DNA of 64,000 bases from Gigantopelta aegis (Eukaryota > Mollusca > Gastropoda > Neomphalida > Peltospiridae). Positions 15,090-57,500 of this stretch are shown here, one piece after another (the first letter of the stretch is position 1; each line of letters opens with the position of its first letter). Both the position numbers and the translations under genes were made by a program. The notes under the pieces were generated by a model that was not told where the DNA came from, did not search any database, and saw only the letters and a list, made by a program, of their open reading frames with translations. Where the stretch lies: contig NC_054704.1 in assembly GCF_016097555.1 (NCBI RefSeq), positions 76,119,081 to 76,183,080 of the forward strand. The letters run 5' to 3'.

Positions 15090-15223
15090 TTTTAGATATG
15101 ACGCACTTAATATTAATTAATTTTCTAGTGAACAACGTGCTACTTCTGGTTAGTTTGTAAAATTAATTTATAAAGCCCCCATTTACAAACAATACTTTTT
15201 TAAATATGCATGTCCCGTTCCAG

Positions 15224-15242
15224 ATCCGGGACGAGCGCCCCA
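15224..15242 (-). promoter_or_regulatory. Candidate tRNA primer-binding site
   Basis: On the - strand, TGGGGCGCTCGTCCCGGAT lies 12 bases inside the LTR end. It is close to, but not identical with, the tRNA-Pro complement used by many retroelements. The position between LTR and gag supports the call. Confidence 0.5.
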
Positions 15243-15254
15243 ATTTTCTACTCC

Positions 15255-16401
15255 TGTCACGGGGATTCTATAATTCCCGTAACTGAATAAAAGACGATTA
15301 TCAAAAATCTCTCCTAACTGTATATCTATTAGATCTCTCTGTAACAGGCTGTTAAACCTAGTATGGCTCGTCTCTAGGTATGATCAGAGATACGATCTTA
15401 TATAAAGTATATATTAATATAGCACGTTAGTTCTCTAGAAAACACAACAAAAACACAATACACTTTGGAATCTGTATTAATCTACGCTGACAAATGTACA
15501 GCCGTAGTAGTAATTAATAACAACAATAATAACAACCCAGAACTGATCACTTAATTAGTTAATCTCTGGGTGTCTAGTTACACAATATGCGAATCACTTC
15601 ACCGTTACACCACACCCACACGTGTGATAATTGAGAAACGCTTCCAGGAGAAGTTAATTAATAAAGGAATTACAACACCATTCCTAACTGGTTAATTTTT
15701 AATTAACCCTAACTACTCTTCAGTAATCTTGTAACACAGAATTAATACTTATCACAATAAAGACAATAACCTACAGTTTACCCAGGTCGGCTGGGATGAC
15801 TGGCTAAGCTTTATATTACCAAATACTCATATAATGTTAGAACAATAAGTCTACGATTTACTTCGTCAGATGACCGAAGACACTGTCTAAAGAATATTGG
15901 TATAATACAGTATTAAAATATTTAAGTCACATCAATCACATCAAGGTTATACACAGAGCAGAAATGATATTTACCAAAGTCCAAATGGACTAACGTTCCC
16001 AGGAGCCGTCCTAAATTCGTTCTCCTCGATATCTCTAAATCCTAGCTATTTATTCCAAAATCAGAATTGGCCTGGGGGAACAAGGCGGCACCTCACGTAT
16101 CATCTCATATTTCATCTCTCCTAGCGTAGATATTATTTCTCTCTGATCGTCAGACTACTGACGCCATCGTCGCCAAAATCACGGTCGTCGAAACCGCACT
16201 CGCAGAGGTATTACGTAACTACTCGCCACATGGCCTCCACACCTCGCTAAGTGCATATTGGAACGCCAGATCGAGGATGGTCGCGCAGAAGTCTTACGTA
16301 ACAAGTTGTCCACCTGGGCTACGGGCAATAAACTGCACACGGCCCCCTAACACAATTAAAATCGCCACAGGCGAAACAAATTAAGAGCATGTACCGTGAC
16401 A
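15255..16401 (-). repeat. LTR of the Gypsy element
   Basis: On the - strand it begins TGTCACGGTAC at 16401 and ends CCCCGTGACA at 15255, giving TG...CA ends and an 8-bp inverted terminal match (TGTCACGG/CCGTGACA). Length 1147 bp. It is placed between the 3' end of one body and the primer site of the next. No second LTR is visible in the window for comparison. Confidence 0.7.
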
Positions 16402-16420
16402 CACCCCCACCTCAAAAAGG
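16402..16420 (-). promoter_or_regulatory. Candidate polypurine tract
   Basis: On the - strand the bases just before the LTR read TTTTTGAGGTGGGGGTG, a purine-rich stretch where the plus-strand primer is expected. Confidence 0.5.
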
Positions 16421-16640
16421 ATATTTCCTCTACTCTAGGAATAGGGAAATAAACTACATTAAAACAAAGGGGTGCGTTAACCGACGCATACGGGCATTTA
16501 TAACACATGTAATAATAAGGTGACTACCAGTAATCACACTGAGTCTCTGAGTCCCTGGTATACAAATAAAATATATATAAACAAAACAGAAATAAAGAAT
16601 GTCAACACATTATCATAACGTTCAACTTCGGGACAGGGCA

Positions 16641-22399: not shown

Positions 22400-22581
22400 T
22401 ACTGCTTGCATCACGCCTTGCACGATGTCAAGACGATCGAGTCGCCCGTCGTCGGCAACCTCTCACGGCAGCAGGTCCTCCAACATAGACCGGGACTTCA
22501 AGCTGAACTGCAAGGCAGCATATCTGTCCGTGTTTGACGACATCAGAGATGAAATAACCTCAAAGAATGATCTCATATTAG
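22400..22581 (+). CDS. EFCAB7: EFCAB7 exon with start codon
   Basis: Acceptor TATTTTCAG ends at 22399; a 25-base leader precedes ATG at 22425. Codons give MSRRSSRPSSATSHGSRSS (a Ser/Arg-rich N-terminus) and then the conserved CKAAYLSVFDDIRDEITSK. Donor TTAG|GTTCGT at 22581, phase 1. This ATG is chosen because it is the first after the acceptor and is followed by the family's N-terminal pattern. An upstream ATG in the same frame at 22344 lies inside the SINE tail. Confidence 0.85.
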
Positions 22582-28500: not shown

Positions 28501-31500
28501 ATTGGGCTATTTCTCGTCACAGCCATTGCACCATGACTGGTATATCAAAGGCTGTGGTATGTGCTATCATGTCTGTGGGATGGTGCATATAAAAGATTCC
28601 TTGTTACTAATGGAAAAATGTAACAGAATCCTGTCTAAGACTGTCAAAATTATCAAATGTTTGACATCCAAGAGCAAATGATTAAAAAAAGAATCAGTGT
28701 GCTCTAGTGGTGTCGTTAAACAAAACAAACTTTTTTTGGTTCAGATATGAATATTAATCACAGGTGAAATTTTACCTGCGATTCATTTATGCACCAACAG
28801 TGCTGTCTCATAGATCAAGGTCACAACTAATTAAGTTTACTGATTAATGTAGCCCGCAGTTTAGGAACATCATGTTATTATGTTTTTTGTCATAATTATT
28901 TTTTAAAAGATGCATAATTATTAACAAATTATATTTTATGCAGGAACAATTTTTCTATATTCAGGTATATCTTTGACTAAGAGTTTTGTTCACATAGGTC
29001 ATCATGTTTTTGTTGCTGACTTGCATGGCCTGTATTGACATGCTTTGGTCATTCACTGGTTGCCAGTTAATACAAATATACTTTATAGTTTTTTTAAGAC
29101 TAAACAGTTCTATGAATGGTTTACATACATTTTATAACAACCTTCCAAAAGCAGAATATTTTTAAATTCTTTTAATTAATAATGTTTTATTTTAAATGCT
29201 ATTAAAGACCAGGCCCCGAATTTAGAAAACCTTGAGAGTCTAGACTCAGAACTCTAATAAAGTCTTGAGACTTATGTCATTGCAACACTATACAAGTTGT
29301 GTGTATGTGACTTTATTAATGATTTGGGCCTAGACTTTATACAGATTTATAAGCTATAAATTCTCAACATTTGTTGTTTGCATCAAACAGCTTTCACTAT
29401 TTAACTGCTAACAACTGCAGAAAAATAGAATCAACTTGTTGAAAGATGGATGTGGATCAGATTTTGGTATTTGTTAATAGCATGGAATTTTAACGTTAAT
29501 AGCATGAAATTTTAAAGTTAATAGCATGGAATGTTAAGGCATGTTTCACGCCCATGGCTAGTGATATTCAATGTTGGGCTAGTAAATAATTACTATTGCC
29601 ATGCCCGACGGCTAGTGAATTGTTTTTTGTCAAATGTTGCAGCTAAGTATTTTGTAAATATGAATATCCTGACCCTACCCCAACCCTCCATGTTAGTGTT
29701 TTTAAGCTATATCTCCCTCTTTCGGTGACATATTTGATTATTACTCATATTTAAGTAAAGTAGGGCTAGTGAATTTTTAATCGTGGCTAGTAAATGTTTT
29801 AAATCACTGATCCCATGGCTAGTAGATTTTAAAAAAATTCTAGAATCCCTGTACAATATATTAATAACACTTGTTTAAGTCTTTTGGTAATTAACTGTAG
29901 ATTAATCATTAGCGATTGTTTGTCTCAAAATGTTGTTTTTCATACATTGTATATTTTCCACCATTAATTGTCTTCAATAGGCTTTCATGTAGTTCAGCAA
30001 AGCTGTGACAGAACAAAATAAATGTGTACTGCTGCCATGTTGCTTTTTTATTTTGCTTTGTCTGTCTTTTATTTGTTTGAGGGGTTTTTTTTGTTGTTGA
30101 GTTTTGGGGGGGGGGACGGGTGTGGGTTTTTGGGGGGGACTTAACATGGGTGGTGTTGCATAGCTGTATACATGTAATTGGAATAAATAAATACAATTAT
30201 AGTTTTTAAGGTTTTTGTTTTTGTGGACATAAACAGTTCTGGTTGTTAGCCACCAAATTAATTCTTTTTTAACAACTCTTCATCATTAAATGTATTTAAA
30301 GTAAGTGTCAGCAAATACTACATTTTGGAAATGTTAAAATTAATATTTACAAATAAATATGTTATACATAGTGAACAGTTGAAGATCTATTATGGATATA
30401 TCACTGATAACATTGAACGAATATTACCATTGGTTACTTTGTTCCAGGGATTATAAATTCATAATTGTTTATCATGATATTCTTCTGGGAAATCAAAAAA
30501 AACTGTAAATAAAAAAAAACTTAAAAATTGCTTGTTTCTTCTCTATATTTGAATGATTCTAGGAAAAGAAAAAGTAAATGAAAAAAAAGAAGAAGAAAAA
30601 GTTACTGCTTACTGGGGGTGGTGGGGAGGGGGTCTCTACATCATACATGTGAATGTGTTTGGTGTGCATGTATTGTAAGTGCATTAGGTCACATGGCATG
30701 CATATTCACACTGTACATACGTGTATGAGAAGATACCATTCATTTAAAAACTTCTTATATTTTAAATCTCAGAACTATGCTGAAGTGGTTACATAGTGTT
30801 ACTTCGTAATCTCACCTTAGGTGTTAAAAAAAAAACTAATAATGCAGTACTGAAACCTGTTCATAACTTAAATATTAAAAGCAAATGCTTGAATAGTAAA
30901 TTACAGTTTTAAGCTTTCTTCTTCTTTTTTCTTTTTCTTGTAAGGTTTTCCTGACAAATATTTACTACATACATGTGTATTGTGTATTATTAATAGAAAT
31001 TAATATTTAAAATAATATGATATACAGACTCACAGTTTTAAAAAAAAATTCTTCCTATAGTTCTGCAACATGATGATGAAGACAGTGGAGGAATCTAGGA
31101 AGATGGCCATGAAAATCATGGAGAAAAAGGAGAGAAAAAAACAACGCAGCAAACAATCGGTCACCCCTAGAAAAGGTAGTTCATTCTTTCACACAGTATT
31201 TGGTGCATCTCACTATTGTGCCCCATCGATGGGCCCATTGGGCTATTCCTCGCCTCAGCCAGTGCACCATGACTGGTATATCAAAGACTGTGGTATGTAC
31301 TACCCTGTCTATGTGGGATGGTGCATATAAAAGATCCCTTGCTGCTAATCGAAAAGAGTAGTCCATGAAGTGGCGACAGCGGGTTTCCTCTCTCTCTCTA
31401 TGTGTGGTCCTTAACCGTATGTCTGACGCCATATAACCGTAATTAAAATGTGTTGAGTTAAATAAAACATTTCCTTTCTTCCTGACCATTTTGAGGCAGG

Positions 31501-34500: not shown

Positions 34501-35809
34501 CTGGTTTTGGGGAGCTTGGGCTTTTTTTTCTTTTCTTTTTTTGTATTTTGGTTTAATTTGCTTTCAGAAAGTTGTATTTTACATTTCACAGTGTTGTCAC
34601 CTAGTTTGTAATTTATGTAGAAAGGCATCTGTTACTACAACAAAAATATATTTATTAGTCAAGGAAGAAGAAGATGTACAATCTTCGAAGACGTCTTTAC
34701 GTTCTGGATCTAAGGAGCTGAAAAGTAAGGTGTTCTTCTAACACATGCTTTTGAAATGGCTTCAGTGACCAAACTGCAAGCTTGCTTTTTTCATCCTATT
34801 CTAAACTTGATCAGGAATTTTCAAGTCGTAAATATAAAAAAAGATTTATTGTTGTGGTTTATATTGTTTTACAAATTACAAACATTAATAATTATTTTGT
34901 TATTCAATTAGATGCAGTAATTATACAGTAAGAAGTATAGTTAAAAGTATCATTTGTAGGAACTGGTTTACAAAGTGTATTGCATTTAAAAGTGTTAATA
35001 CAATGAAATTTCTCTAAACTGGAGACCTACAGGACAAAGAAAAAAGTCCAGTTTCGATAGGTATTTGGTTTAAAGAGTTACAGGTAGTTTCTGCACTGTA
35101 CCTTGTTTGTAATTTACAAACAAAAGATATCTTTGACAACACAAAATATATTTATTACATATAAAAAAGAGAATGTATAACCATCAAGAACATCTTTAAA
35201 CTTTGGGTTACTCCAGCTTAAAACTGATGTTCTCATCTCTATAGCAACCAAACTGCAAGTTGCAGTGTGCCTTTTTTTTCATTCTGAATTTGTCCAAGTC
35301 CTAAATATTATTTTGGCACTGTGGTGCATATTTTGTATAAAGAATAAAGTATAAACATAAGTAATTATTTTGACCTCTAAATAGTTGTTATAAAGTTAGA
35401 AGTAATTAATTAAAATGTCCTTTGTACAAGTAGGCAGTGACTGTTGAACTGGTTGATATTGAATACGTTAATGATGGGATATTTCTTCTGAACAAAGTGC
35501 ACTAAATACTGGTATATTTCAAAATGTTAATACCTTGTACCTTGTTTGTACAAATAAAAAGTACATCTTTGACTACAACAAAGTATATTTATTAGACAAG
35601 GAAGAAGAAGATGTACAATCTTCGAAGACGTCTTTACGCTCTGGATCTAAGGAGCTGAAAAGTAAGGTGTTCTTCTAACACATGCTTCTGAAATGGCTTC
35701 AGTGACCAAACTGCAAGCTTGCTTTTAAAAAATATAATATGGATTTTTTAAAACCATATGTATCATGTATAGAACTTTGTTATCTACAGATAACAGATCA
35801 AAATTAAAG

Positions 35810-35877
<68 letters not shown>

Positions 35878-37604
35878 TCAAATCCACTTAATTGGATGTC
35901 GGATTATTGAATATTTCGGATATTTGAATATGTTTGTCCTGCACGGAACCATTTGCCATTATGACAATACAAAATCCAACGGTTAATTGGATGTGTTTTT
36001 TAACGTGTTTTCGGATATTTGAATATAAAATTATCCTTGCCGAATGGCAATTGCACGTAAAACATAGGAAAGTTTGTGTTACTTGATGTGTTTTTTTTTA
36101 ATTTATGATCGTACGTAATACCATACTATCGTACATGCAAAAATGAATACTTTTAATTTTATTTAATTTCATTTGTTTGTCCAAAAAAAGGAAAAAGATT
36201 TTACAACAAACTTGTTTTCTTGTTTCTTAAATTATTTCGGATGACTCGTTATTAATCAATACATTTCTAATTACATCGTAATTAATCCATGAACTCTGAG
36301 ATTCATCTCAAATGTGACCCAATGGCCGAGACAATGCAGGACAATCAAGGATCAAAGTCGGTCATTCCCACCTTGTTGGCGGCCATGTGCGTTTCGTAAG
36401 CAGGCATCCCTTAATCTCATGTCGGCCACTTTGAAGCAGTGTATGTTTAATCCATAAATAAACACTTGTCAGATATTTTTCTCTATGAATTGTCGGTGAC
36501 AGTAACAAACAAAAGCCGTTTGCTACTAGTGTTATTTTTAGCGGGATCTTTTGATCACGTGATTTTTCCTCTGCAGCTCACAATGTGAGGCCCCATTTGG
36601 GGTGACCGATTATGGTGATTATTGTTTAAATTGTTAAATGCCGACAAAAGGTAAGTTGTAGGAGATTTTCTTAGCAAGTTGGATTAATCATCTTTTGGCT
36701 ATAAATATTGACAAGAACTATTTTTTTTCACAATGTCAACAGGCAAATAAACGGAAAGGAAACGATTTATCTTTGGCTCAGGAAATACGACGAGATATGT
36801 GCCCAGTATCTAGCCAATGCTAACCCAGAACGAGAAAAAGACAGAGAACAGGAAAAGCAGCCAATGTTTGGAGAAGGCCTTATCAGAACCGGTTTTCCGT
36901 CGCCAGACAAAAAGACATTCCAATACGGGCCCAATATTAGCGTTTGTGTTTGTGTTTTTCCTTCTGTTACATTGAATAACGGCCTTTCACTTATTTGACT
37001 TTGGCCAGTCTAGTTTACCTGTCAAATCAGTTACAAATGCACACAGATAATAGTCAGATATTTGTCCTGGTAAAATACAGAACATGGAAATGACTACTTA
37101 TAAAGATTATATTGGGTGGTTGGGGTGGGGTCTTGTTGCACTTGATTTACAAATGTACAAAGAAGTTAATAATGGCCATTTAATTATCAAGAAGTTAATA
37201 ACGGCCTTTTAATTATTTGACTGTGGCCAGTCTAATGAGCTTCCGGTGGTTTTTATTGGGTCATTAGATGCACTTTAGTCACTTCTGCTTCTAGGCGTAC
37301 AAACGGCATTGTTTGTTGTCTCTTGTATTTATCAAGTTTATAGACAAACTTGATAATGGCAACAGAGTCACAATATGGAACTTGGAATCGGTATTTTATT
37401 AACACAAAATACTTACCGGTTTTTGACGAAAATTCCACATGTCATGAGGCCCAAATTGGGAGAATCGTAATTAGGGTTTGCATAAATCAACGAGGTCTTA
37501 ATTGGGTATATCGTATGTCGAAACTGTACCTTCGGTTTATTGAATATGCCGCTTATTTGAATATATTTTTGTTGCACGAGGCACATCCAAATAAGCGGAT
37601 TTGA

Positions 37605-37640
<36 letters not shown>

Positions 37641-40600
37641 TGTGTAGTTTATATTATTAAAATACCATTTGTGTAGTGACATTTGTATTAGATTGCCTGG
37701 TAATACATAATAATATATATAGAGAATGGTATTTAAAAATCTTAGGTAACCGTTCATCATTTCTTGTGATTCTTACCTAGATAACCGATTGTTTGTATAA
37801 ACCTGGAAATTAATTATGCACTACTTGAATTGTTTTGTGACCACAAAGGCACATAGAAGTAGTTATCCATCATGACAGAAGTTTAAATCAAATATGCAGA
37901 CTGTTTACATGTGCATAATTATATTCTGTATCTACAGGGTATTTATCGAGATGGAAGGAATTAATTATTTACGAGATACAGTGTGATTTCAGCTCTGTAA
38001 TTAATTACCATCCACCTTCATACATTTTTACGGTTTCTGTCTTTTTTCCTACAATACCAGTATATTAAACATTGATGTAAGGACAGTGTTAGTTGCTGGT
38101 AATCTGTTTCAGTATTCTCTGTGTACACAGATAATTAATTTCAGTGTTTTGTATCCACGAAATGGTCACAATGTTTTGTGAATAAATGTCACATGGCCTT
38201 AGAGTGGTGCTTAATTCATTTCCTGGTGCATATTTGCGTAACCAGTGAATTATCTAATTGTAATATGTGTACTAATGATCTGTACTACAATGTATTTTAA
38301 ACGAATTGATTTTGCAAATGATATGTAATAATATTTTTCAATTGTCTAAAATCAGTCTGGAAAATATTTAGAATTAATTTGCATTTGTTAATTTTATAAG
38401 ATAAGGATTTGCATAAACAGAACAAAGGTTCAAGTGAAATATTGTTTCCTATATACATGTATATATGAAGGGTCCAAGGCAATAACCTCTGATGTCACAC
38501 TGGGTATTTTAAAATAATTGAATTTTAAAGTTTACAACTCTGTAGTAATGGAATTTATTTATACCTATATAAGCAAGCATGTTTTACCAACAACCCTTAA
38601 TGGCCTACCACAACTGTAGGTTTTTACTACATTGTGTCATTGTGGCCATGACACACAACCTTTATAATATTGACTCTGTATGGAGGGCTGAGACGTAGCC
38701 CAGTGGTACAGCACTCGCTCGATGTGTGGTTAGTCTGAGATCGATCCCCATCGGTGGGCCCATTGGGCTATTTCTCGTTCCAGCCAGTGCACCACGACTG
38801 GTACATAAAAGGCTGTGGTATGTGCTATCCTGTGGTGCATATAAAAGATCCCTTGCTGCTAATCGAGAAGAGTAGCCCATGAAGTGGCGACAGCGGGTTT
38901 CTTCCCTCAATATCTGTGTGGTCCTAAATCATATGTCTGACGCTATATAACTGTAATAAAATGTGTTGAGTGCATCGTTAAATAAACCACTTCCTTCCTT
39001 TCCTCCATAGGTTATTCCATTGCATTTTAAATGTTTGATAAAATGACGTCTGGTTCACATTGACTCTGCATTATTTTCATTTCATTATTTACTACTTTCT
39101 GTTTATTGACCAAATTTATCATAATATAGTTGTATAGTAATTAACTTGACAAAAGTGAGTTGTATAACTATTATAGTTAAGTTTGTGCAATTGACCTATT
39201 TTAACATAACATATCTTTGATATATACATAGCTAGCATGACATTAACTATTAAATGCATTTTAAATAGTCTTATATCATGTGAATTAGCATATCATATTA
39301 CTGGAGTAGTTTGCAGTTAAAAGTTACAAATATGGATTGGAGCAGATAATTGAAAACTGTGTCAAATGTGGACATCCTACATTATTCCCTGGGGGGAGAG
39401 GGGGGGGGGAGCTGGACGTAGCCCAGTGGTAAAGCGCTCACTCGATACGCGGTCAGTCTGGGATCGATCCCCATCGGTGGGCCCATTGGGCTATTTCTCG
39501 TTCTAGCCAGTGCACCACAACTGGTATATCAAAGGCCGTGGTATGTACTACCCTGTCTGTGGGATGGTGCATATAAAAGATCCCTTTCTACTAATCGAAA
39601 AGAGTAGCCCATGAAGTGGCGACAGCGGGTTTCCTCTCTCAATATCTGTGTGGTCCTTAACCATATGTCTGACACCATATAACCGTAAATAAAATGTGTT
39701 GAGTGTGTTGTTAAATAAAACATTTCTTTCTTTCTTTCTTTTTATTCCCTTGGACCCTTCATATGTAAATACATGTACACATGCATATACACACATAAGA
39801 GAAGTGTCCGAAATATGCAGTCTTCTATTCAACAGGATACTCTAGCAGTGCTTTTAATAGTCACTACCACCATTGTGTACTGTTTGACATTTTAACAAAC
39901 CTCGGCTCTTCGGTTTTCCAATTTTTTTAAGTAGTATATTTTTTTATCTCCTTACATGTTATTGATGGGGCTTGTTTTAAAAGAAAAAGACTATATTTTA
40001 TATAGTAACACGTGCTATAAGATTGCAAATTATATACATTTGGTAAATATATTTATTACCCCAGCAGGCACTCATAGCGGGGAAAATAAAAATCATGAGA
40101 AATTATAATTTCTCACTGAGAAATTATCATGCATTGGTCTAACGAACAATACTATTGGATGATTTGATGCTTACAAACCAATGACCTTGTTGGTACTAAA
40201 TATGACATCATCACAATTTGTCATGTAGTTTAAAGAGTTTGCGTTTACCGCTGTCTGTTTTTTGGTGTTTAATTTATAACAAAATGTCATTTTAATGCAA
40301 TTCATTATAGATTTTGTTTTTGTTTTTGAAAAGTATCTATGAAGGTGATTAAATTACAAAGTTATTGCAATACTCAAAACAGTGCATATAGTGGTTTACA
40401 TCGTTTCTATACGTGTACGTGCATGTGTGTCGAAAATAAAGGTTTTTAGAGAAAAAAATAGCTCAGGTAATAAATAAAATGACAAACTAGGTACCAGTTA
40501 TTATCAAATTTATGTCCCTCATGAAATAATTTTCATTTGTCACTCGCTAAAGCTCGTGACGACTGAAAAGTATTTTACTCGGGACATAAATTTGATAATA

Positions 40601-42499
40601 ACTGGAACCTCGTTTATTATCCTTTATATATCATACTTCATACAGTTGGTGAGGTGTTTTGTTTTTTCTTAATAATATTCATTAACTTGGATAAAAAAAA
40701 ATTATTTTAGTTATTTTTTTTATATTATTATTTTTTTTGGTACTTAATCCAATGAAGGTTCAAGCAAGCTGTCCTGGAACCACGTTACCGGTAGTTACCT
40801 GAACTTTTTGTGCAGGACAAATGTTAATGGTCAGTGACATTGGTTTCAGAGAGACAAGCCAGTAGCCAGTGCTGTTTTATTTTCCTAGTACATGCTTTTG
40901 TCATGGCTTATAATTTAGCAACCAAACTGCGGTCTTGCATTTGTATTCTAGCATGAATTACTCAGGAGTTTTCAAGCTACACTATATACATGTATATCTA
41001 TATATAAGCAACTTTATTATGGTCCTTCATTTTTGTAGATTATATTCACACATACACACACACAACCCTTGTAATTGCTCACATCTTCATCTCAATTTAT
41101 ATTTCGTGCTTATATCCAGTTGAGGTTCAAGCACACTGTCCTGGGCACACACCTCAGCCTGGGCTGTCTGTCAAGGACAGTGGGTTAGTTGTTAGTTGGT
41201 TAGTGGTTAGTGAGAAAGAAGGTGTAGTGGCCTTACACCTACCCATTGAGTCGTTAAAACTTGCTCTGGGTGAGAGCCGGTACCAGGCTGCGAACCCTGT
41301 ACTTGCCAGCCTTATGTCCGATGGCTTAACCATGACACCACCAAGGCTGGTAATTGCCCACAGGAATCGGCAGTGATGTAGAGGTCAGGTCAGGTCATAG
41401 GGCTTTACGTTCACATTTAGAGCAAGCTGTTGTAGCGCACGCCTGTCTTGGGCACAAGAGCCGGCCTTAGCCGGCTCCTCCGTCCAGGACAGGAAAGGTG
41501 GGTGGAGGGGAAGGAGGGACCGCCTGCACTGGCAGGTGCAAGTGAGCACCAGCAGACCGACCGTGGTCGGTAGCAGGCAGAGGGGGTGCTATGGAATTTT
41601 GAATAGAGCAAGAATTATGCCGAAAGAGAAAAGGTGCGCAAGTTTGATTAAGGACTTTGGGCGCAATTTTGAACGGTCGGTCAAAAACAAAGTTCCGGAG
41701 CTAATATAGGTTTTGACATTAGTGAATCGAGAGTAGCTCGCGTGATGTAGAGATTTCCGTGTAGTTTTTAATTCTCCACAACACTTTCTTTTTTTCCATG
41801 GCATATATTTTGGCTACAAACATGTTCATAATTGCAGGGGTTGCATACACAATATACAAATAATTAAATTGCCCTTTCTGGTATAGTGGCTTGTTCAGAA
41901 AGTTGAAGTTTGCATTTCAGCATGTTACTGGTTACTGGTTAGGTTTTTAACGTGTTCATATACCTTTATGGTTTCAAATACGCCTATCCCAAGTCCGACT
42001 TCCAATAAGATCGAGGTTCTGACACAGGGCAGGAGTTCAACATGTTATCGCCCTGTTTATAATTCATATGTACATGTAATAGAAAGGTATTTATGACCCC
42101 AATAAACTATATTTATCAGATAAGAAAGAAGATGATGTAGAATCCTCAAGAACATCATTACGTTCTCAGTCTATCCAGCTGAAAAGTAAGGTGCTTTTGG
42201 TGTGAGACTGCCATTAAATTTTTTGCTTTTATTTATTTTAATTATTTTATCCTAACATACATATACACATACAAATTAAAACTGTATACAGCTATAATTA
42301 AAAGAACTTTAAAAAACAAAAACATTAAGACTTTTTATGTATGTATAAGTAAGTTTTCAAATGATACTTTTAGTTATTATTTTCGAGAAGAAAGGGATAG
42401 ATGTAAAAGATAAAATAAAATCAAAGTTATAATATTCTACCTGGCTTTTTACATAAAAGGTTTTTTGTTCCTTTTTCTTTAATTTGATTTTATATATTG

Positions 42500-42568
<69 letters not shown>

Positions 42569-45500
42569 TTTCTGTCCGTGAGATGGGTATACTGTGTATG
42601 TACATGTATTTGTATTACGTCCATCAGATTTTTCATTACAAAATGTTACATGTAAAAATTACCTTCGAAATAATGATAGAAGAAAAAGAGAGAAAAATCT
42701 TACTCCAACAAAATATATTTGTTAGATGAGGAGGACAAAGATGTCCAATCATCAAAGACGTCTTTACGCTCTGGATCTAAGGAGTTGAAAAGTAAGGTGT
42801 TCTTCTAACACACATGCTTTTGAAATCGCTTCAATGACCAAATTGCAAGCTTGCTTTTTTCATCCTACTCGAAATTTGATCATAAATATAATTTTACTGT
42901 TGTGGTTTATATTTTAAAAAAATTACAAATTACAAACAAATATTTATTTTGTTTTTTAATTAGATGCAGTAATTATACAGTAAGAAGTATAGTTAAAAGT
43001 ATCATTTGTAGTAATTGGCCTATGAAGTGTATTGCATTTAAAAGTGTTAATACAATGAAACTCCTCTAAACTGGAGACCTACAGGACCAAAAAAAAAGTC
43101 CAGTTTTAAGACAGGGGCGGCACAGTGTAAAAAATAGTGGTACGGCTCAAAGGCAACCAAGCCAAGCCTCCGAAGAATGCGACCATTTAAGCGAGTATGC
43201 TCTCTCGGAATTGTTTATTAATGTAGATGCCCAGTAGTGAAATTAGAGTAGGCTTGCTTCCTCTTCTTTTCTAATTTTTGTTTTGTTTTGTTTATTTATT
43301 TTTTATAGGGCGGGACGTAGCCCATATTTGTGTGGTCCTTAACCATATGCCTGATGCCAAATAACCGTAAATAAAATGTGTTGAGTGCATCATTAAATAA
43401 AACATATAAAGATACCGTGTTAATGACAATAACAATTATTTTGTTATTCATAGAGACGCTCGTGAGATAACAGATATACAGAGCTAGCACAAGAGCTGGA
43501 CCATTATTGGACTCTTACTTATGCAGATATACGGTTTTGGTCATGACAGGTCGTTTAGATTTAAATAAAATATCATCTTGCATTAGAATATTTAAAATTT
43601 CCCAAAGACATCACTTTTTTCTCTGTTCAATAACACAAAGTCTCTCATTGCTTCTCTGACATCAGCTTTCCTATCTTTGTGAATGAACATCATCATCAGA
43701 TGGTTAAGTTGCTCTTGTGTCACGCTGGTGCGTAGATATGTTTTCACATGTCTTAGAGACGAAAAAGACCTCTCACTTGTAGCCGATGTCGCAGGCATTA
43801 CCAAGAGTAGTTGGAGCAGCCTTGATGTTTGTGGAAAGAGTTCCTATATTTACAGACCTGTTGTTACAAACTGTCAAAAGAGAAGTTAGCTTCTTGCATT
43901 GTGTTCTTCAACATGCATAATTCAGTATGGAGTTGGGCTTCTTCAAGATCATCTCCGAAATGATCGTGAATTTCATGTATGATGTCATCAGGAACTTTCT
44001 CTCCTGTAGCAGCCGTTTTCAGAGCAGTTTCGACTTTTGCATAAAATGCAAGAGCAAATGATTGAAACCTACGCACAATTTGTCCAGTCAGCTTATCAAC
44101 TACTTCAAAGTACAGGTATGTGAGAGCTACGCGGAAACGTGTAACTGTTCTTTTCCATTCTGTCTGAAAACAACAACAACATGATGTTCAATACTGTTGA
44201 CCACACAAGGTTCATTTGCATGTTTTCACTGTTTCAAGTTTATGATGTGTGCCGTATATTATAAGTTATAACCAGTTTAGATTTGTTAGCATTGAATGCA
44301 ATTTTTGGCAGTTCCAGGGTTGCAAGCAACAGTTTTCCTTCAGGGGCCCTTAAGCAGTCCCTGGACCCCGGCCGCAGTAAGCTTTTTTGTTCCAGCTCCT
44401 CTCACATCCCTGAAAGTAGAGCCTTCGATACATGTCTTTTGGCGTTGCATCATGGTGAGTACATGTCGACATTGGATCAAGATGAGCAGGTGCTTTTCGT
44501 TTGGGTATCTTGTTGTACATCGAATGCAGACATCTTGACCTGTACTTCATCCTAAAGTGATTCAAACTGTTCTTCTGTTCTTTCTTCCCTCAAGCAAGAC
44601 AGAGTAACATGAGCATACTGTCTTGCTTCTACTGCACAGTGTCTTCTTCTGTATGGCTTTACTAAGTGTGTCTGTGATGGAGAATAGATTTTCAGATAGA
44701 ACAAGTCCAAACACAAAAGAGAAATTTTCCATAGTCGAAATTATTCCTTTTGCAATTGCTGTGGCTTCTGTGTTACTGTATTCCTGAATTACTTTGAACA
44801 ATTCCTGAATGACCTGATAGTTGGTTAAGATGGATCTCAGGGATTCCGAATGAACAGTCCATCTCCTTCGACACAGTGATCTAATACCAGGTGAATGCAG
44901 TGATATTTCTTGTTTACGGCTAAGGAACTTTGCTTTCTTCTTAGCACTATATTTCATTGCCGTAGACATTTCAAGGACTGTGTCAAAGGTATCTGCCATA
45001 ATCTTTACTGATCTACAAGTATCTTGAATAGCAGCAAGATTGAGTAAGTGTCCCATACAATGCAGATATATAGCTCTTGGTTCCACTTCTTGGATTTGTG
45101 TTGCAACTCCAGATCGGCTTCCCGACATATTGGCAGCACCATCATAGCACTGACCACGACACCAATTCAGCGTAAGAGAAGAATGCAACAGAACATCTTT
45201 GATCAGGCTCTTAATTCACTCAGCATTTGTTCTGTCAGTTAGGATCGATCCCTGTCGGTGGGCCCATTGGGCTATTTCTCGTTCCAGCCAGTGAACCACG
45301 ACTGGTATATCAAAGGCCATGGTATTTTCTACCCTGTCTGTGGGATGGTGCATATAAAAGATCCCTTGTTGCTAATGAAAAAGAGTAGCCCATGAAGCGG
45401 TGACAGCGCATTTCCTCTCTCAATATCTGTGTGGTCCTTAACCACGTCTGACGCCATATGTACATGAAATGTGTTGGGTGCGTCATTAAATAAAAAATAA

Positions 45501-48500
45501 AAAAAACATTTCCTTTGTTCTGTCAGTTACATAGAGGCCTATGCAGTCTTCAAACCTCAAATGTTTCAGCATTCACATATCGGATGCAGATGGTGAGCTA
45601 AATAAAAGTAGAAATATGATTCTGTTAAATAAAAGAAAACAATATGTGGTTGAGTTTTTGCCAAACATTTTTGGGGGAAAATCTTTTCGAGGTTGATAAA
45701 TCTGTTTAATCAGTTGTGGCATTTCAACATTAATGGATTTCATTCTACCTGTTTCAGCCGACGAGTCCATGGAATAAACATTAGCTTCTGTCGTCTCATG
45801 AACCCGTGCTACCTTAGGTCTGGACGACAGACACTCAAACAACGACTGCTGTCTAGCCAGCATGTTTCGATTTGAGGTGGCCATGATGGATTCTTAAGCT
45901 CATGTGACTGAACTGAACTGAACTGAACGGTTTCGTAGAAAACCAATACATATCATGACAGCATTGGGTGGACACACATGACGTCACTTTAACAATGACG
46001 TCCAACACTTCTTTTATTGTATGGTAGTGGTTTATAATTTGCTTGGGGAGGGGTGGAGAAGTTTGATGATCAGTGACTGACTAACACGTCTAGATTTTTA
46101 AAAAAAAAAAATATAAAAAAAACCTCAGAAAAAAGTGGTCACGGCCATACCATCTGTGCCGCCCCTGTAAGAGGTATCTGGTTTAGAGAGTTATTTTCTG
46201 CACTGTACCTTGTTTGTAATTTACAAACAAATGATATCTTTGACAACACAAAATAAAAAAAGAGAATGTATAACCACCAAGAACATCTTTAAACTCTGGG
46301 TCACTCCAGCTTAACAGTGATGTGTTCTCATCTCTTCAGCAACCAAACTGCAAGCTTCTAATTTGCAGTGTGCCTTCTTTTTTCATTCTGAATTTTTTCA
46401 AGTCCTAAATATTCTTTTGGTACTGTGGTGCATATTTTGTATAAAGTATAAAGTATAAACATAAGTAATTATTTTGACCTCTAACTAGTTGTTATAAAGC
46501 AAGAAGTAATTAATTAAAATGTCCTTTGTACAAGTAGGCAGTGACTATTGAACTGGTTGATATTGAATAAGTTAATGATGGAATATTTCTTCTGAACAAA
46601 GTGCACTAAATACTGGTATATTTCAAATGTTAATACCTTGTACCTTGTTTGTACAAATAAAAAGGACATCTTTGACTACAACAAAGTATATTTATTAGAC
46701 CAGGAAGAAGAAGATGTACAATCTTCGAAGACATCTTTACGTTCTGGATCTAAGGAGCTGAAAAGTAAGGTGTTCTTCTAACACATGCTTTTGAAATCGC
46801 TTCAGCAACCAAACTGCAAACTTGCTTATAAAAAATACATTTTGTCAGAATTTTTAAAGTCATATTTATGGTTCATATTTTGTGAAAAGTTAAAAGCATG
46901 AATAATATAATTATTAAGAAGTAAATAAAATATTGTTTGTAGGTAGTTGTGTTTTTAACTGCTTGGTGTTGAAGATTTTAATTACATGACAATTAATCCT
47001 TCTTAACTGAGGATACTTTATTATATATTACATTTCAAAGTGGGGGTTTTTGTTGTTGTTTTTGGGGCGTTTTGGGGTTTTATTTATAAATTATTTATTG
47101 TCCCAGAGCACATCTGTAATGTCAGGGTTGGGGTCCTGAATTCATTACGTACAGAAACAGTGGTAGAGAGTATATATACACACACACAAACACACACACA
47201 GTAAAAAAAACAAAATATATATATACATGTACTATTTTAACAAAAACACAGGCACCTTTAGTTTAAAGTGCAGTGTTAATGCCATGATTGTAATTTACAA
47301 ATAAAAGGGTTATTCAACTACAACAAAATATAATATATTTTAGATAAGGAAGAAGAAGATGTACAATCTTTGAGAATATATTTATGCTCTGGGTCTGAAC
47401 ATCTGAAAAGTAGGGTGTTCTTCTAACACATGTTTTGGTCATCACGTCCGTGACCAAATTGAAATCTTGCTGATTTCATCCTACTATGGATTTGATCAGG
47501 ATTTTTCTAGTCATAAATATAATTTTACTGTTGTAGTCAATATGTTTTTTTACAAATTACAAACATTAATAATTATTTTGGTTTTTAAATACATATAGTA
47601 ATTATACAGTAAGAAGTAGTTAAAATATCTTTTGTAGGGACTGTTTTTTTAACTGGTTGGTGCTAAATAACTTAATAGCTGTTCTAAACAGTGTGAAGTG
47701 TATTGCATTTAAATAAAAGTGTTAATACAGTGAAACTCTAAAAAGAAGACCACAGAACATGATTTTGCTATCACTTCTGTAACCAAACTTGTAAACTTAC
47801 TTTTTAAAAAGATGTCCTATGATTTTTTCAAGGTGTTGTATAATAATTACAATACTCTTTATTTAGTGATACATGTACATTGTATTTGCATAGGTCAGTA
47901 TTAATAAATGATGCATCCAGGAATGGTCATAAATACACCGTCTGCTATTCAAATAGTATACGGCACTTTGGAAGTGTCATTTATAGTCCCAGAAAAATCA
48001 TAAGTGAGGGCAGAGATTCGTAATTGTCTTAACTTATAAAACGGGTGTTATAACAAAACTCATTTCACAATTCATCATAGTTATGCTACTATTATTTAAT
48101 AAAATGTATTTTGTATTGAAAAACACACTTAGTTACATGCCAAGTGATATTTTTTTGTTGTTGTTGGGATGGAAGGGAGGGGGGGGGGGGGGGGGTCTTT
48201 TTGAGGGAATAGGGTGGGAGTAGGGAAGTGAGGGATAGATGCAAAATATGAAATAATTTCAAAGTATAATGTTATACCTGGCTGTTTACACACAAGATTC
48301 TTAGATCCTCCTCCATCAGTATTATTCAGTGTGTCGGGTGTAGTTCATAACTACTATTAATAAGTCAGTTAGATTTTCCGTTACAAAGTTCTATTACCTT
48401 CTGAATTATGATTTTTTTTTTTTTCTTTAACAAAATATGTTTGTTAGATAAGGAAGACAAAGATGTACAATCTTCGAAGGCCTCTTTACGCTCTGGATTT

Positions 48501-51500
48501 AAAGAGTTCAAAAGTAAGGTGTTCTTTAACATGCTTTTGTCATGGCTTTAATGACCAAATTGCAGTCTTGGTTTTTTTTCATACACCGTGACTTTGATAG
48601 GATTTTTCAAGTCATAAGTACAATTTTATTATTGTACCACTTACAATGGTAAAAAAACCACCTATTCTTGCCTTTAAAAATATGCAGTCATTATACAGTA
48701 AGAAGTAGTTAAAGTGTACTGATGGAAAGAAATTTCACGCAAATAGTAACAGCAAATATTGATTGTGACTAAAATCCTCATCCACAGTATCGGGAAGTTG
48801 ACCCTGTTACTAGCAGTTCCACTGTATTTTATAAAGGAATAACTACTCTATATAGTCCGTTTGAGGGGTGGGACGTATCCCAGTGGTACAGCCTCGCTCG
48901 ACGCGCGGTCGGTGTGGGATCGATTCCCGTCGGTGGGCCCATTGGGCTATTTCTCGTTCCGGCCAGTGCACAATGACTGGTATATCAAAGATCGTGGTAT
49001 GTACTACCCTGTCTGTGTGGGAATGGTGCATATAAAAGATCACTTGCTGCTAATCGAAAAGAGGAGCCCATGAAGTGGGAACAGCGGGTTTCCTCTCAAT
49101 AACTTTGTGGTCTGACACCATATAACTAAATCAAATGTTTTGAGTGCGTCATTAAAACATTTCCTTCTTTTCCTATATAGTATGTTTGCGTGCAGAGGGA
49201 AGCAATGAATTGGCATATAACTCTTATTATGAATAAAGTTAAAATATATATAAAAATATATTAGTAAGTTTTAAACTCAACTCAAAATATATATTTTTTT
49301 GGGGAAAAAATCAGTGTAAATAAAAAGTTTCTTTAAAGATTATCTACAAATTGCTTAGTCTAAATCTTATTTTACAATGCAGGTAAGAAGACAACTGATG
49401 GAACAGCCAACATATTTAGCACACACGTTTCTACCTCTAGTCTTGGTGTACTGTATTATCGATTACTTCAGTACTACAATAGCAATGCAGCTAAGGCTGT
49501 TCTAGCAATTTGTCTTCACCCCTGTATCAAAAATGAGATTAATGTATATAATCATATGGCAATTTGTTAAGAAACTTTTTAATTACACAGACATTTGTAC
49601 TAAAAAAAAAAAAAATGTTTAGGTTTAATATAAGATTTAATATTATTTGTTATAGAGATATATGCCAATTCATCAGTTCCCTTTTTCAATCAAACGGCCT
49701 ATAGTACTGAATAAAATTAAATTTTTACCCATATGGTTAAAAAATCAAATTGGTTATATGTACATTTGTTAAAAAATTTTAAAAAAAAAAAAATTGCAGG
49801 GGGAGGGCACTTTTTTCAATGTGGTTAGTGGTGTGTGTGCAGATTAAAACTGTATACAGCTATAATTAAAATAGCTTTCAAAAAATTTAAAAAACAATAA
49901 GACTTAGTTTTAGGTACAAATACAGTAAGTTACCAAATGATACTTTTAGTTATTATTTTGGAGGAGAAAGGGATAGATGTAAAAGATAAAATAACATCAA
50001 AATTATAATATTCTACCTGGCCTTTTACATAAAAGTTTTTTTGTATCTTTTTTTTTTTTTAATTTATATATATACTGAACCGCAAAAGAAACGCGAGATT
50101 TTTAAATGTCATTTCTATATGGTAAATTATAACAATTTATTTCGGGGATGTAACTGTCAATATTACAAGACATGCTGGTTTATGACTGAGACCCAAATTA
50201 GGTACCCTTTCAACTTTCCATGAAACGACACGCCAAAACGCACCTGTCTCGAAGGCCGTGGGTGGCAGTCGCAAACAATTCTCATGAAAACCGAAATGCA
50301 CGTGCATCTCATGGAGGTTATGGGTATAAAAACCAACTTGAACCGCGTTCCTGGCATTCGTAATTTGCACGCATCAGGTATGACCCGATTGTCAGCAGCG
50401 CAGAGAGAACAAGCTATCGGCCGATTGCAAGCCGGGCAGCGTGCCCTGGTTGTTGCTAACGCTTACAATGTCCATGTCAGCACCATCCATCGTCTACAGC
50501 AGCGGTACATCAACACCAACAGCACTGCAGACAGTCACCGCAGCGGGCGCCCCCGGGTGACCACGCCCAGGCAGGACCGCTACATCAACCGGCAACACCT
50601 CCATGATCACTTCAGAACGGCCAGCATGACAGCTCGCGCGACCATTGGCACTGGACAGCGACCCATCAGTGACGACACGGTACGACGTCGACTGGCCGCC
50701 AACAACCTGTTTTGCCGACGTCCCGCTCGAGGACCTGTCCTCACCGCCCGCCACCGTCAGACACGACTACAGTGGGCTACACAGCACCAACATTGGCGGC
50801 ATCAACAATGGAGGTTGATAGTCTTCTCTGACGAGAGCCGGTACTGCATTTCCAACTCGGATGGCAGAGTGAGGGTGTGGCGTAGGAGGGGTGAACGCTA
50901 CAGAGACGCATGTGTCCTGGAGAGAGACCCGTGGGGTGGCCAAAGCATCATGGTTTGGGGTGCTATAGGCCTGAATCAGAGAATTGGGCCCCATTTGTTC
51001 CAAAATGTTTGGTGCAGGCAGAGGGAATGGCATCACAGCGCAGCGCTACGTTGACCAGATTCTAACACCTCACATAGTGCCCTTCTTCACGCGTCACCAT
51101 AACCACGTGTTCCAGCAGGATAATGCTCGCCCCCACACGGCCAGGATCACCATGGACTTCCTGCGTCAGCACAACATCAGAACCATGCCGTGGCCGGCTC
51201 TCAGCCCTGATTTGAACCCGATTGAACACCTGTGGGATGAAATCCAGAGACGGCTTAACCAGGTGGTCCCACGGCCGACAACTCGTGTGCAACTGGAGGC
51301 AGCTTTCCTGAGGGTGTGGGCACAGGTGCCAATGGCTTTTGTGAACCGCCTCGTGCACTCCATGTACCAACGGTGTATGGCCGTTTTGAACACCCAGGGA
51401 GGACATACACGGTATTGAACATGTCACGCCCTACAATCTCGATGTGCTGGATCCCCCCACTACCTGAACACAGGCAAACGACCCAGAGACTGTGGTCAAA

Positions 51501-54500
51501 GTGCATCCAATAAATTGACTTTATCAGATTTTTCAAAATTTATCTCTGATATTAATAAATTGAAACATATTTTCTCAGCCACACATGTGTCGCGTTTCTT
51601 TTGCGGTTCAGTATATATACATTTTCTGTCAGTGGGTGGGCTATATTGCGTATGTATTTGTATTACGTCCGTTAGATTTTTCATTACAAAATGTTACATG
51701 TAAAAATTACCCTTGAAATTATGAGAGAAAAAATCTTACTACAACAAAATATATTTGTTAGATGAGGAGGACAAAGATGTCCAATCATCAAAGACGTCTT
51801 TACGCTCTGGATCTAAGGAGCTGAAAAGTAAGGTGTTCTTCTAACACATGCTTTTAAAATGGCTTCAGCGACCAAACTGCAAGCTTGCTTTTTTCATCTA
51901 CATGTACTCTAAATTTGATCAGGAATTTTCAAGTCATAAATAAAAAAAAAAGAGTTATTGTTGTGGTTTATATTGTTTTACAAATTACAAACATTAATAA
52001 TTATTTTGTTATTCAGTTAGATGCAGTAATTATACAGTAAGAAATATAGTTAAAAGTATCATTTGTAGGAACTGGTTTACAGGAGTGTATTGCATTTAAA
52101 AGTGTTAATACAATGAAACTTCTCTAAACTGGAGACCTACAGGACAAAGAAAAAAGTCCAGTTTTGATAGGTATTTGGTTCAGAGAGTTGCAGGTAGTTT
52201 CTGCACTGTACCATGTTTGTAATTTACAAACAAAAGATATCTTTGACAACACAAAATATATTTATTAGATATAAAAAGAATGTATAACCACCAAGAACAT
52301 CTTTAAACTCTGGGTCACTCCAGCTTAAAACTGATATTCTCATCTCTATAGCAACCAAATTGCAAGTTGCAGTGTGCCTTTTTTTTTTTTCATTCTGAAT
52401 TTTTCCAAGTCCTAAATATTATTTTGATACTGTGATGCATATTTTGTATAAAGTATAAAGTATAAACATAAGTAATTATTTTTACCTTGAAATAGTTGTT
52501 ATAAAGTAAGAAGTAATTAATTAAAATGTCCTTTGTACAAGTAGGCAGTGACTGTTGAACTGGTTGATATTGAATAAGTTAATGATGGGATATTTCTTCT
52601 GAACAAAGTGCACTAAATACTGGTATATTTTAAATGTTAATACCTTGTAACTTGTTTGTACAAATAAAAAGTACATCTTTGACTACAACAAAGTATATTT
52701 ATTAGACAAGGAAGAAGAAGATGTACAATCTTCGAAGACGTCTTTACGCTCTGGATCTAAGGAGCTGAAAAGTAAGGTGTTTTTCTAACACATGCTTCTG
52801 AAATGGCTTCAGCGACCAAACTGCAAGCTTGCTTTTTTCATCCTACATGTACTCTAAATTTGATCAGGAATTTTCAAGTCATAAATATAAAAAAAAAAGT
52901 TATTGTTGTGGTTTATATTGTTTTACAAATTACAAACATTAATAATTATTTTGTTATTCAGTTAGATGCAGTAATTATACAGTAAGAAGTATAGTTAAAA
53001 GTATCATTTGTAGGAACTGGTTTACAGGAGTTTATTGCATTTAAAAGTGTTAATACAATGAAATACCTCTAAACTGGAGACCTATAGGACAAAGAAAAAA
53101 GTCCAGTTTTGATAGGTATTTGGTTCAGAGAGTTACAGGTAGTTTCTGCACTGTACCTTGTTTGTAATTTACAAACAAAAGATATCTTTGACAACACAAA
53201 ATATATTTATTAGATATAAAAAAGAATGTATAACTACCAAGAACATCTTTAAACTCTGGGTCTCTCCAGCTTAAAACTGATATTCTCATCTTTATAGCAA
53301 CCAAACTGCAAGTTGCAGTGTGCCTTTTTTTTTCATTCTGAATTTTTCCAAGTCCCAAATATTATTTTGATACTGTGGTGCATATTTTGTATAAAGTTTA
53401 AAGTATAAACATAAGTAATTATTTTGACCTCTAAATAGTTGTTATAAAGTAAGAATTAATTAATTAAAATGTCCTTTTTACAAGTAGGCAGTGACTATTT
53501 GAACTGGTTGATATTGAATAAGTTAATGATGGGATATTTCTTCTGAACAAAGTGCACTAAATACTGGTATATTTTAAATGTTAATACCTTGTACCTTGTT
53601 TGTACAAATAAAAAGTACATCTTTGACTACAACAAAGTATATTTATTAGACAAGGAAGAAGAAGATGTACAATCTTCGAAGACGTCTTTACGTTCTGGAT
53701 CTAAGGAGCTGAAAAGTAAGGTGTTCTTCTAACACATGCTTTTGAAATCGCTTCAGCAACCAAACTGCAAACTTGCTTATAAAAAATACATTTTGTCAGA
53801 ATTTTTAAAGTCATATTTATGGTTCATATTTTGTGAAAAGTTAAAAGCATGAATAATATAATTATTAAGAAGTAAATAAAATATTGTTTGTAGGTAGTTG
53901 TGTTTTTAACTGCTTGGTGTTGAAGATTTTAATTACATGACAATTAATCCTCCTTAACTGAGGATACTTTATTATATATTACATTTCAAAGTGTTAATGC
54001 CATGATTGTAATTTACAAATAAAAGGGTTGTTCGACTACAACAAAATATAATATACAGGACCGTACATGGTGGACATTACTGGGGGAGCCCAATTGAACG
54101 AGCCCCGAAGGCACGAGGTATTTGGAGGGTCCAGGGGCATGATTCAAAGGTTATTTGCCTGTTACTGTAACTCTCGTCATTAAGCTCGATCCGTTAGTCT
54201 CGCTACAATGTTTACATTCAAACCCTCTCCCCCGCTATGGGCCCAGTATATTTTAGATAAGGAAGAAGATGTACAATCTTTGAGAATATCTAAATTATGA
54301 TTATTTTTTTTTTACTATAACAAAATATATTTGTTAGATAAGGAAGACAAAGATGTACAATCTTCAAAGACCTCTTTACGCTCTGGATTTAAAGAGTTCA
54401 AAAGTAAGGTGTTCTGTAACATGCTTTTGTCTTGGCTTTAATGACCAAATTGCAATCTTGGCTCTTTGTTTTTTCATACACAGTGACTTTGATAGGATTT

Positions 54501-57500
54501 TTCAAATCATAAGTACAATTTTATTATTGTACAACTTACAAACATAAAAAAAACTATTTTTACCTTTAAAAATATGCAGTCATTATACAGTAAGAAGTAC
54601 TTAAAGTGTACTGATGGAAAAAAAAAATTCACGCAAATAGTAACAACAAATATTGATTGTGACCATGGTAGCGGGATGTAGTACATGTACATGTAGTGTT
54701 TCCACCTGTGAAGCGGTCGGTCATCGGATCGATCCTTCTCAGTAGACCCATTTGCAGTTTGGGCTATTTTCCGTTCCAACCAGTGATCCACAAGGCCCTG
54801 GTATGTGCTTTCCTGTGTGGGAAAGTGCATATAAAACACCCCTTGCTGCTTATCAGAAAGAGTAGCCAATGTGGCAGCAGTGGGTTTCCTCTAAAGAAAT
54901 ATGTTAGAATGACCATGTTTGACGTCCAATAGCTGATGATAAGATAAAAATCAATGTGCTCTAGAGGCGTCATTAAATAAAACAAACTTTACTTTGTGAC
55001 CAAAATCCTCATCCACAGTATCCATGTTACTAGCAGTTCCACTATTTTATAAAGAAATAACTACTGTATTTAGTCTGTTTGCGTATAAAAATATATTAAG
55101 TTTTAAACTCAACTCAAATAAGTTTTTTTGGAGAAAAAAAATTGGTGTAAATAAAAAGTTTCTTTACAGATTATCTTCAAATTGCAAGGGCTAAATCTTA
55201 TTTTACAATGCAGGTACATGTATAAAGATAACTAATGGAACAGCCAACATATTTAGCACACACATTTCTACCTCTAGTCTTGGTGTACTGCATTATCGAT
55301 TACTTCAATAGCAATGCAGATAAGGCTGTTCTAGTAATTTGTCTTCACCCCTGTATTAAAAATGAGATTAATCTATATAATTACATGTATATGGTAGTTT
55401 GTTAAGAAATTTTTTAATTACACAGACATTTTAGTTTTAAAAAAATGTTGAGGTTTAATATAAGATTTAATATTATTTGTTATAGAGATATATGCCAATT
55501 CATCAGTTCTCTTTTTCAATCAAAAGGACTATAGTAGTGAATAAAATTTATTTTTACCCATATTGTTAAAAAATCTAATTTGTTAAACACTTAATTTTGG
55601 GGGGAATTTTTTTCAGGGGTGTATGTGCACACACACCTGAATCTATGCCTTTATGACTATATTGTTACTGACATTTTGTTGGCAAAGTCCAAACGAAACA
55701 CCACACAAAATTCAAATGTTCACCTCAATAATGTATTGAACACCTGCATTGTGAAATCACCAGTCATTCAAATTAAAACTGTGGCCTACAATGGAGATAC
55801 TGTATTATGTTTTTGACAAAATGAACACTTATTAGCCAGAACATGAGTTGTGTACATGTAGTTGCTTTTGTAAACAATTTATAAAATGGTGATAGAGATC
55901 ACAGCTTTAAACTAGAAATATCATATATCATTTTAACACCATGTAACATGAATGTGTGTGGGGTTTCAGAACCAAAAAGCTGAAAAATAAAAATAAACAA
56001 CTGCAAGAACGTGTTTTTTGGTGTGTGTGTGTGGGGGGGGGGGGGGGGTGTTTGTTTTGTTTGTGTGTTTTTTGGTTGGTTGGTTTGTTGGGCTTTTTTT
56101 TGCTTTTTCTTTTTTTGAGAGGGTGTTTGTTTTTGTTTTGTTGTTTTTTGTTTATGGTGGGAAGGCTATCTTTAACTGGCAAAATGTTTCATGACATTTG
56201 CTTAAAACAAAAGATGGATGAAGATAGTGATGATACCAGTAATAATGATGACATCTTGAATGAAAACATCATAGTACATGTAGTAGTTAATAGAATGACA
56301 TCTTAGATTGGAATCAAACTGTGTGCTCACTTCCTTATGTGTGTGTTGTAATAAAACAGGCTTTAAAAGTGTAATACATTTGTATATGTTTAATAGATTT
56401 TAATTTTCTATAATTCAGACCAGTACAAAATCTGCACAAACAGGTCACAGTGTTGACACGACTGGCCTAAATGCAGGGCTAGCTTTGGGTCAACAGATAA
56501 TTTCACCAAGTTATCAATCCTACTTCAAAAACTGCAGAAACCCAGTTATTTTCCAACAAAACATTTATTTCATGAAATTATTTCAATAAATTAAAATAAA
56601 ATTCGCCAATTGTTTTTGAAATTCGCAATTGGCGAATTTGGCGAGTGCCAGAGCTAGCCCTGCCTAAATGTATTATGACGAGTGGATTCTGACGAGTGTA
56701 TTGTGACAAGTGTATTACGACAAGTGTATTCTGACAAGTGTATTATGAATCCCAAAATGTTATAATATTGTGTTTACAAATTGTGAAATTTGACTACAAC
56801 AAAATGTATTTATTAGACAAGGAAGAAGAAGATATTCAATCTTCAAGAACATCTTTACAGTCAGGCTCTGGGCATTTGAAAAGTAAGGTGTTCTAACACA
56901 TGCTTTTATCATGGCTTCCTGACCAAACTGCAATCATGCTTTTTTTTTTCCTAACATGGATTATTGGGATTTCTCATATATGGTTGCAAATAGCTAATAT
57001 GGCAGCAAATACCTGTACCGGGTATGTAACAAGAACTTGACACGGTTTTACCATTAGGTCCATAAATAGATATATGTATTTATGTTTTAAATGTACAGCA
57101 GACAAGCAATATTTTATTAAAGACATCCTGTGATAGACAAATCTGTATTTTTAGCAATTTTATTTTGTTCAATAAGCATTGATATATGGATAACACACAA
57201 ACTCACTTTGTCAAAATCTGTTTTCCATTTTTTTTAACGTGAGATAAATACATTGTAAGATCAGTTATGTCATGATAGTTCCCAATTAATCAAAGATTTA
57301 AAAATTCATAGAATGTTTAATAATTTTGCTGCCATCTTAGCAATCTACATTGGGACATTGTAGCTGTGTTTGCACCGTGGATTTCTTTTGTTGTTTTAAC
57401 ATCCAGTGTGAAAATAATCCTATGATAGATTTGGCTTTGTCACTGTCCTATAGCATTGGTTTGATTTCTAGCTTTTTCCTACACAATCAGGTGTGCGTGT

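Follow-up and report, generated by a model that had tools for sequence, protein, structure and literature searches.

We describe in the EFCAB7 gene of Gigantopelta aegis an array of twelve intact copies of one 66-bp exon, which we read as an array of optional cassette exons that is used only in part. Because each module is 66 nt long and has phase 1 at both borders, any subset of modules preserves the reading frame, and database models that splice the array with either one or four modules indicate that module number varies. Our preferred interpretation, held with moderate confidence, is that the array is a repeatedly, and in part recently, duplicated EFCAB7 cassette exon whose splicing tunes how long a linker is and how many motifs it carries. 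The sequence and the database models support the existence of the array and the variable inclusion of its exons; regulation and function are inferred. The features discussed below lie in a 64-kb stretch of DNA, referred to here as the window, and their positions are listed in Table 1.

Table 1. Exons, modules, and decayed copies at the EFCAB7 locus, numbered from the first base of the window.
Feature	Position	Strand	Evidence or remark
EFCAB7 coding exon 1	22425..22581	+	starts with ATG, ends in phase 1; identical to X3 residues 1-52
EFCAB7 exon 2	24754..24819	+	66 nt with phase 1 at both ends, but no module copy; identical to X3
EFCAB7 exon 3, EF-hand	25448..25593	+	spliced model, X3 alignment
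EFCAB7 exon 4, second EF-hand loop	26160..26246	+	spliced model, X3 alignment
Microexon EQFFYIQ	28944..28964	+	21 nt, phase 0, AG before and GT after; used in X3
EFCAB7 exon 5	31061..31175	+	ends TPRK, phase 1; donor for modules
Module exon 1	34659..34724	+	borders, frame, profile
Decayed module copy	35150..35225	+	E 3.9e-05; in-frame stop, donor GT lost
Module exon 2	35596..35661	+	borders, frame, profile
Module exon 3, divergent	42120..42185	+	borders, frame, profile
Module exon 4	42726..42791	+	borders, frame, profile
Decayed module copy	46260..46326	+	in-frame stop in translation
Module exon 5	46699..46764	+	borders, frame, profile
Module exon 6	47344..47409	+	only copy with GTAGGG donor; only copy without SSxxSLR core
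Module exon 7	48448..48513	+	first X9 module; X9 N-terminus runs into intron just 5'
Module exon 8	51762..51827	+	absent from X3 and X9
Decayed module copy	52258..52330	+	donor GT lost
Module exon 9	52706..52771	+	given to X9 by order; peptide common to four copies
Decayed module copy	53203..53276	+	donor GT lost
Module exon 10	53650..53715	+	given to X9 by order; peptide common to four copies
Decayed module copy, truncated	54247..54291	+	profile match, sequence
Module exon 11	54338..54403	+	absent from X3 and X9
Module exon 12	56817..56882	+	lone X3 module; last X9 module
Candidate cassette exon, GSQVSI core	61124..61186	+	63 nt, phase 1-1; skipped in X3 and X9

The host gene is, as judged from its predicted product, EFCAB7, as the initial annotation of this DNA had proposed, and it comes from G. 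aegis or a nearly identical species. Residues 1-200 of the spliced model are 96% identical to the G. aegis EFCAB7-like isoform X3, and the exon pieces aligned to ~100% with X3 within their borders. The same 200 residues gave 271 matches, and among the 120 listed most of the named proteins are EFCAB7. Consistent with this, the spliced model contains an EF-hand_7 domain (E 7.4e-20). A search of the sequences of solved structures showed EF-hand proteins alone among the 60 of 423 matches listed. An Rfam scan gave nothing at gathering scores. The EQFFYIQ microexon places seven residues directly behind the second EF-hand loop. A corresponding insert, RILYYSE or RKLYYSE, occupies this position in 27 proteins that are isoforms from four Haliotis species, and FHYPE is found there in one oyster isoform; 96 of the 148 proteins compared have no insert here, and in 23 of the 148 the pattern was unmatched.

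All twelve modules lie where the initial annotation had placed them, each preceded by AG and open, in phase 1-1, in the frame of the upstream exon. The donor is GTAAGG in 11 of the 12. When the modules are spliced in order after EFCAB7 exons 1 to 5, the frame continues uninterrupted into 61124-61186. A profile built from the twelve modules was searched against both strands of the window and gave 19 matches: the twelve intact copies (E 8.3e-21 to 5.7e-28), a further five that are decayed and score more weakly, inside the array on the same strand (E 4.9e-07 to 3.9e-05), which were absent from the initial annotation, and two matches at chance level (E 0.94 and 2.2). Four of the five decayed copies resemble one another (repeat family D9), and they look like a single decayed exon that was subsequently duplicated. 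A motif resembling S-S-K-T-S-L-R is present in 11 of the 12 intact modules; the module at 47344-47409, with its unusual donor and lost core, is possibly a copy undergoing decay. Pfam gave the module region a weak Apolipoprotein match (27.1 bits against a cut-off of 90), which we take as an artefact of the repeats.

Evidence for the use of individual copies comes from two database protein models of G. aegis EFCAB7, namely X3 (P0001, from a cluster in which one of eight member sequences was examined) and X9 (P0121, 492 aa). X3 reads TPRK-DKEEEDIQSSRTSLQSGSGHLK-NDLPKPSPRV; exon 31061-31175 is joined straight to copy 56817 alone, and eleven modules are skipped. X9 carries four modules in series, followed by the same DLPKPSPRV exon as in X3. 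By peptide and order, these four are most simply 48448, 52706, 53650, and 56817, with 51762 and 54338 skipped; the peptide of the middle two is common to four copies, so their assignment follows from order. Assigned in this way, X9 leaves 8 of the 12 intact copies in neither model. The modules are therefore 66-nt, phase 1-1 exons that are included in some database models and skipped in others, as is characteristic of cassette exons.

These models bear on several predictions made from the genomic sequence. Modules are joined at the borders predicted for them, in X9 four in series. A transcript joining the exon that ends at 31175 to a single module, with the other copies unused, had been named as evidence against the array; X3 does make this join to one module, but X9 uses other copies. 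Two predictions are not supported by these models. The linker had been projected to reach up to 264 residues, whereas the isoforms examined carry one (X3) and four (X9) modules. Exon 61124 had been expected to follow the array as the next conserved block, but both X3 and X9 skip it and join the DLPKPSPRV exon, which was not found in the window. Exon 61124-61186 is in phase and open, even though it is skipped in both isoforms.

The organization of the locus is that of a tandem-duplicated exon array, with homologous exons in one orientation within one gene and homologous flanking intron. Self-alignment of 33.0-58.4 kb revealed that the modules were duplicated together with the flanking intron. 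A tandem unit of ~944 bp near 51.7-53.8 kb (95% identity) has a 1.1-kb relative at 34.6-35.8 kb (~94%), and blocks at 48.4 and 54.3 kb form a pair with 91% identity. Pairwise divergence among the intact copies (66 pairs) averages 0.18 in the exon, compared to 0.29 upstream (~60 alignment columns) and 0.23 downstream (73 columns). The exon columns contain no gaps, compared to 33 gap events in 66 upstream columns and 12 in 66 downstream columns. Certain copies are alike in one flank but not in the other, suggesting recombination or conversion. A transposon-borne exon finds no support in the window, as the profile gave no significant module match on either strand of the 64 kb beyond the array.

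The main rival to the cassette-array account is tolerated, mostly idle duplication, in which a symmetric exon was copied harmlessly within a disordered linker, one or a few copies are used, and the others drift toward decay. Several observations fit this explanation: 5 of the 17 copies have already decayed, copy 47344 combines loss of its motif core with an unusual donor, X3 uses a single copy, and several copies are very recent, with the exon sequences of 35596 and 52706 identical. Neutrality is harder to reconcile with the pattern of substitution among the copies, a comparison that the initial annotation had suggested. Six copies were taken to represent the twelve, all of which were picked for being open; their pooled dN/dS was 0.30, and over all 66 copy pairs the value was 0.28. 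In 4000 neutral simulations on a tree derived from the exons, the ratio for six copies had a mean of 0.80 and a 5th percentile of 0.39, and 0.9% of simulations gave a value at or below 0.30. Openness alone is weak evidence and not decisive, as all twelve copies remained open in 206 of the 4000 simulations (~5%). The absence of indels from the intact exons and the presence of four serial modules in X9 likewise argue against idle copies. Purifying selection on the modules is likely, with moderate evidence for coding constraint, and we regard a mostly neutral history as a possible but doubtful explanation.

Three further alternatives are less probable. X9 begins MIFFFFFNKICLLD, which is the reading frame through the intron and acceptor immediately 5' of 48448, and its N-terminus is absent. 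Given that its first residues derive from intron sequence, X9 may be an incomplete transcript or may reflect an alternative start that yields a truncated EFCAB7 with several modules and without the N-terminal EF-hands. We consider a genuine start at this site improbable, as an incomplete or intron-retaining transcript would look the same and X3 has the full N-terminus. Mutually exclusive splicing, with one of the twelve modules in each transcript, would explain the single module of X3, but the four serial modules of X9 lead us to reject it unless the X9 model is wrong. An assembly error in which one exon region was falsely duplicated could be suspected in a repeat-rich region with near-identical 944-bp units. 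Such an error is highly unlikely, given that most copies differ in both exon and flanks, that unrelated sequence is interleaved between copies, and that different copies are joined in X9.

To place the modules in the protein, we used an AlphaFold2 model of X3 (24-sequence alignment, mean pLDDT 77). Residues 192-239, which include the module, are the sole internal segment with pLDDT <50, and in the model they sit between a long helix behind the EF-hands (154-190) and a strand-rich domain that begins at residue 252. The module stretch of X3 is thus predicted to be disordered. The strand-rich regions of the model span residues 252-350 and 480-608, and their exons are outside the window. A structure search with this model gave mainly calmodulin-like proteins and three low-quality, long matches to gamete or archaeal fusogens, with no calpain among the 50 rows listed. 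EFCAB7 is described as having two calpain CIII-like domains that interact with IQCE (PMC4631099); the module would fall within the first EF-hand/CIII half of the protein. According to a second report, EVC-EVC2 is brought to the EvC zone by a complex of EFCAB7 and IQCE, through the EFCAB7 domain ECH2 and the EVC2 segment known as the Weyers peptide (PMC10413113). EFCAB7 is also listed for two annelids in another study (PMC9695228).

Under the cassette-array interpretation, splicing would pick the number and kind of modules, and this choice would set the length of the tether, its charge, and its count of S-S-K-T-S-L-R-like motifs. The motif, for which we found no known binding partner, may provide reiterated sites for docking or phosphorylation, by which EFCAB7 would be tuned at the cilium base. 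The array itself may still be turning over.

The linker of EFCAB7 is variable across molluscs, ranging from ~15 to ~400 residues among isoforms and species, with the longer bivalve isoforms reaching the upper value. Among the 120 proteins listed, isoforms from Haliotis, Mytilus, Littorina, Pomacea, and others differ by short segments in this same linker. Phase-1 junctions predict that the alternative residues at a point of divergence between isoforms share a possible first codon base, and we scored this property at 42 such points in isoforms from twelve species. It was present at 31 of the 42, compared to a chance mean of 12.9, and 0 of 5000 random draws reached 31; the points are not independent because four of the twelve species are Haliotis. 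Four of the 11 exceptions coincide with the microexon, for which one expects phase 0; the other seven look, on an after-the-fact reading, as if they fall just beyond a junction with a shared residue. The linker regions of other molluscs apparently vary by phase-1 cassettes.

A related motif recurs in many of these linkers. The motif S[KRQ]xS[LIV][RKQ], fitted to the G. aegis modules yet written after the sequences of other species had been seen, was scored in 25 database proteins and exceeded composition-preserving shuffles (p <0.05) in 20 of them. A second, wider motif, also picked after those sequences had been seen, did so in 19 of the 25 (p <0.05). The 25 are not independent, as they include two G. 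aegis isoforms and several sister species. The wider motif occurs 12-15 times in four oyster-type proteins (three named oysters and one oyster-like), 9 times in Mizuhopecten, and 5 times in Ruditapes, and no motif match was found in 3 of the 25 linkers, those of a chiton, one Biomphalaria isoform, and Potamilus. Repeats were gauged by motif counts because BLASTP self-comparison was uninformative, with no off-diagonal rows even for X9, whose repeats are evident.

The likeness to G. aegis takes two forms. In Haliotis, Mytilus, Littorina, and Pomacea, isoforms vary at the same protein site by short, phase-1-like segments with a related GS..S[LIV][RK] core, but by eye the segments within a protein are unlike each other, and no near-identical array was seen in the linkers compared. 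In the oysters Saccostrea and Crassostrea, the linker iterates a motif of the kind found in G. aegis, but the spacing and flanking residues differ in this comparison of proteins. The oyster and Gigantopelta amplifications are probably separate. Oysters, a scallop, and a venus clam all carry iterations of similar motifs at this site, so amplification looks recurrent in molluscs. No close relative of the G. aegis module was found in another species: a search with the module region against proteins of ~476-1515 aa, in which scoring was confined to the 7987 candidates with the most words in common, returned the two G. aegis isoforms alone, and Chrysomallon is absent from the names among the 120 of 271 matches listed. 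We speculate, as a tentative and rather doubtful extension, that the mollusc EFCAB7 linker is a splicing-tuned, multivalent array of GS/SS-x-x-S-[LIV]-[RK] motifs, amplified separately in several lineages (through duplicated exons in Gigantopelta, and up to 12-15 motif copies in oysters), in which motif number, set by cassette splicing, adjusts tether strength or reach at the cilium base.

Tandem exon duplication is an established mechanism. The PEVK exon arrays of titin are tandem exon duplications with alternative splicing. A duplicated exon of the oyster AOX gene is reported as another such case (PMC5589949). The EFCAB7 array is like both in its single orientation, symmetric phase, co-duplicated flanking intron, and optional use. 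It differs from them in comprising twelve intact and five decayed copies of one 22-residue module, in its location in a scaffold of the cilium base, and in copies that are not mutually exclusive. No description of the array was found in the titles and opening lines of abstracts of the papers listed on EFCAB7, alone or with IQCE and EVC2, on tandem exon duplication in molluscs, on cassette exons and disorder, or on G. aegis. Intact, drifting, and dead copies adjoin in one gene, making the birth and death of cassette exons directly measurable. The iteration of the motif across molluscs is, in our view, a more interesting lead than the duplication mechanism. If splicing does set the motif number, and if that number has been amplified repeatedly in molluscs, the linker would be a regulated part of the scaffold and not a passive spacer.

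Other repetitive elements occur in and around the array. A tandem repeat with a 72-bp period, in which a 300-nt reference gives 18 register copies, occupies 58433-60102, between the last module and 61124; it has long open stretches on both strands and looks like a minisatellite. Between modules 48448 and 51762, two overlapping frames at 50284-51415 encode a transposase of Tc1 type (HTH_Tnp_Tc3_2 and DDE_3). SCAN-like and reverse-transcriptase RNase H fragments on the minus strand at 13519-18809 are probably two related pieces of one LTR retrotransposon. The introns from 28411 to 63255 also contain scattered copies of a repeat that is a few hundred bases long (families D7, D11, D12, and D16), which we take to resemble a short interspersed element.
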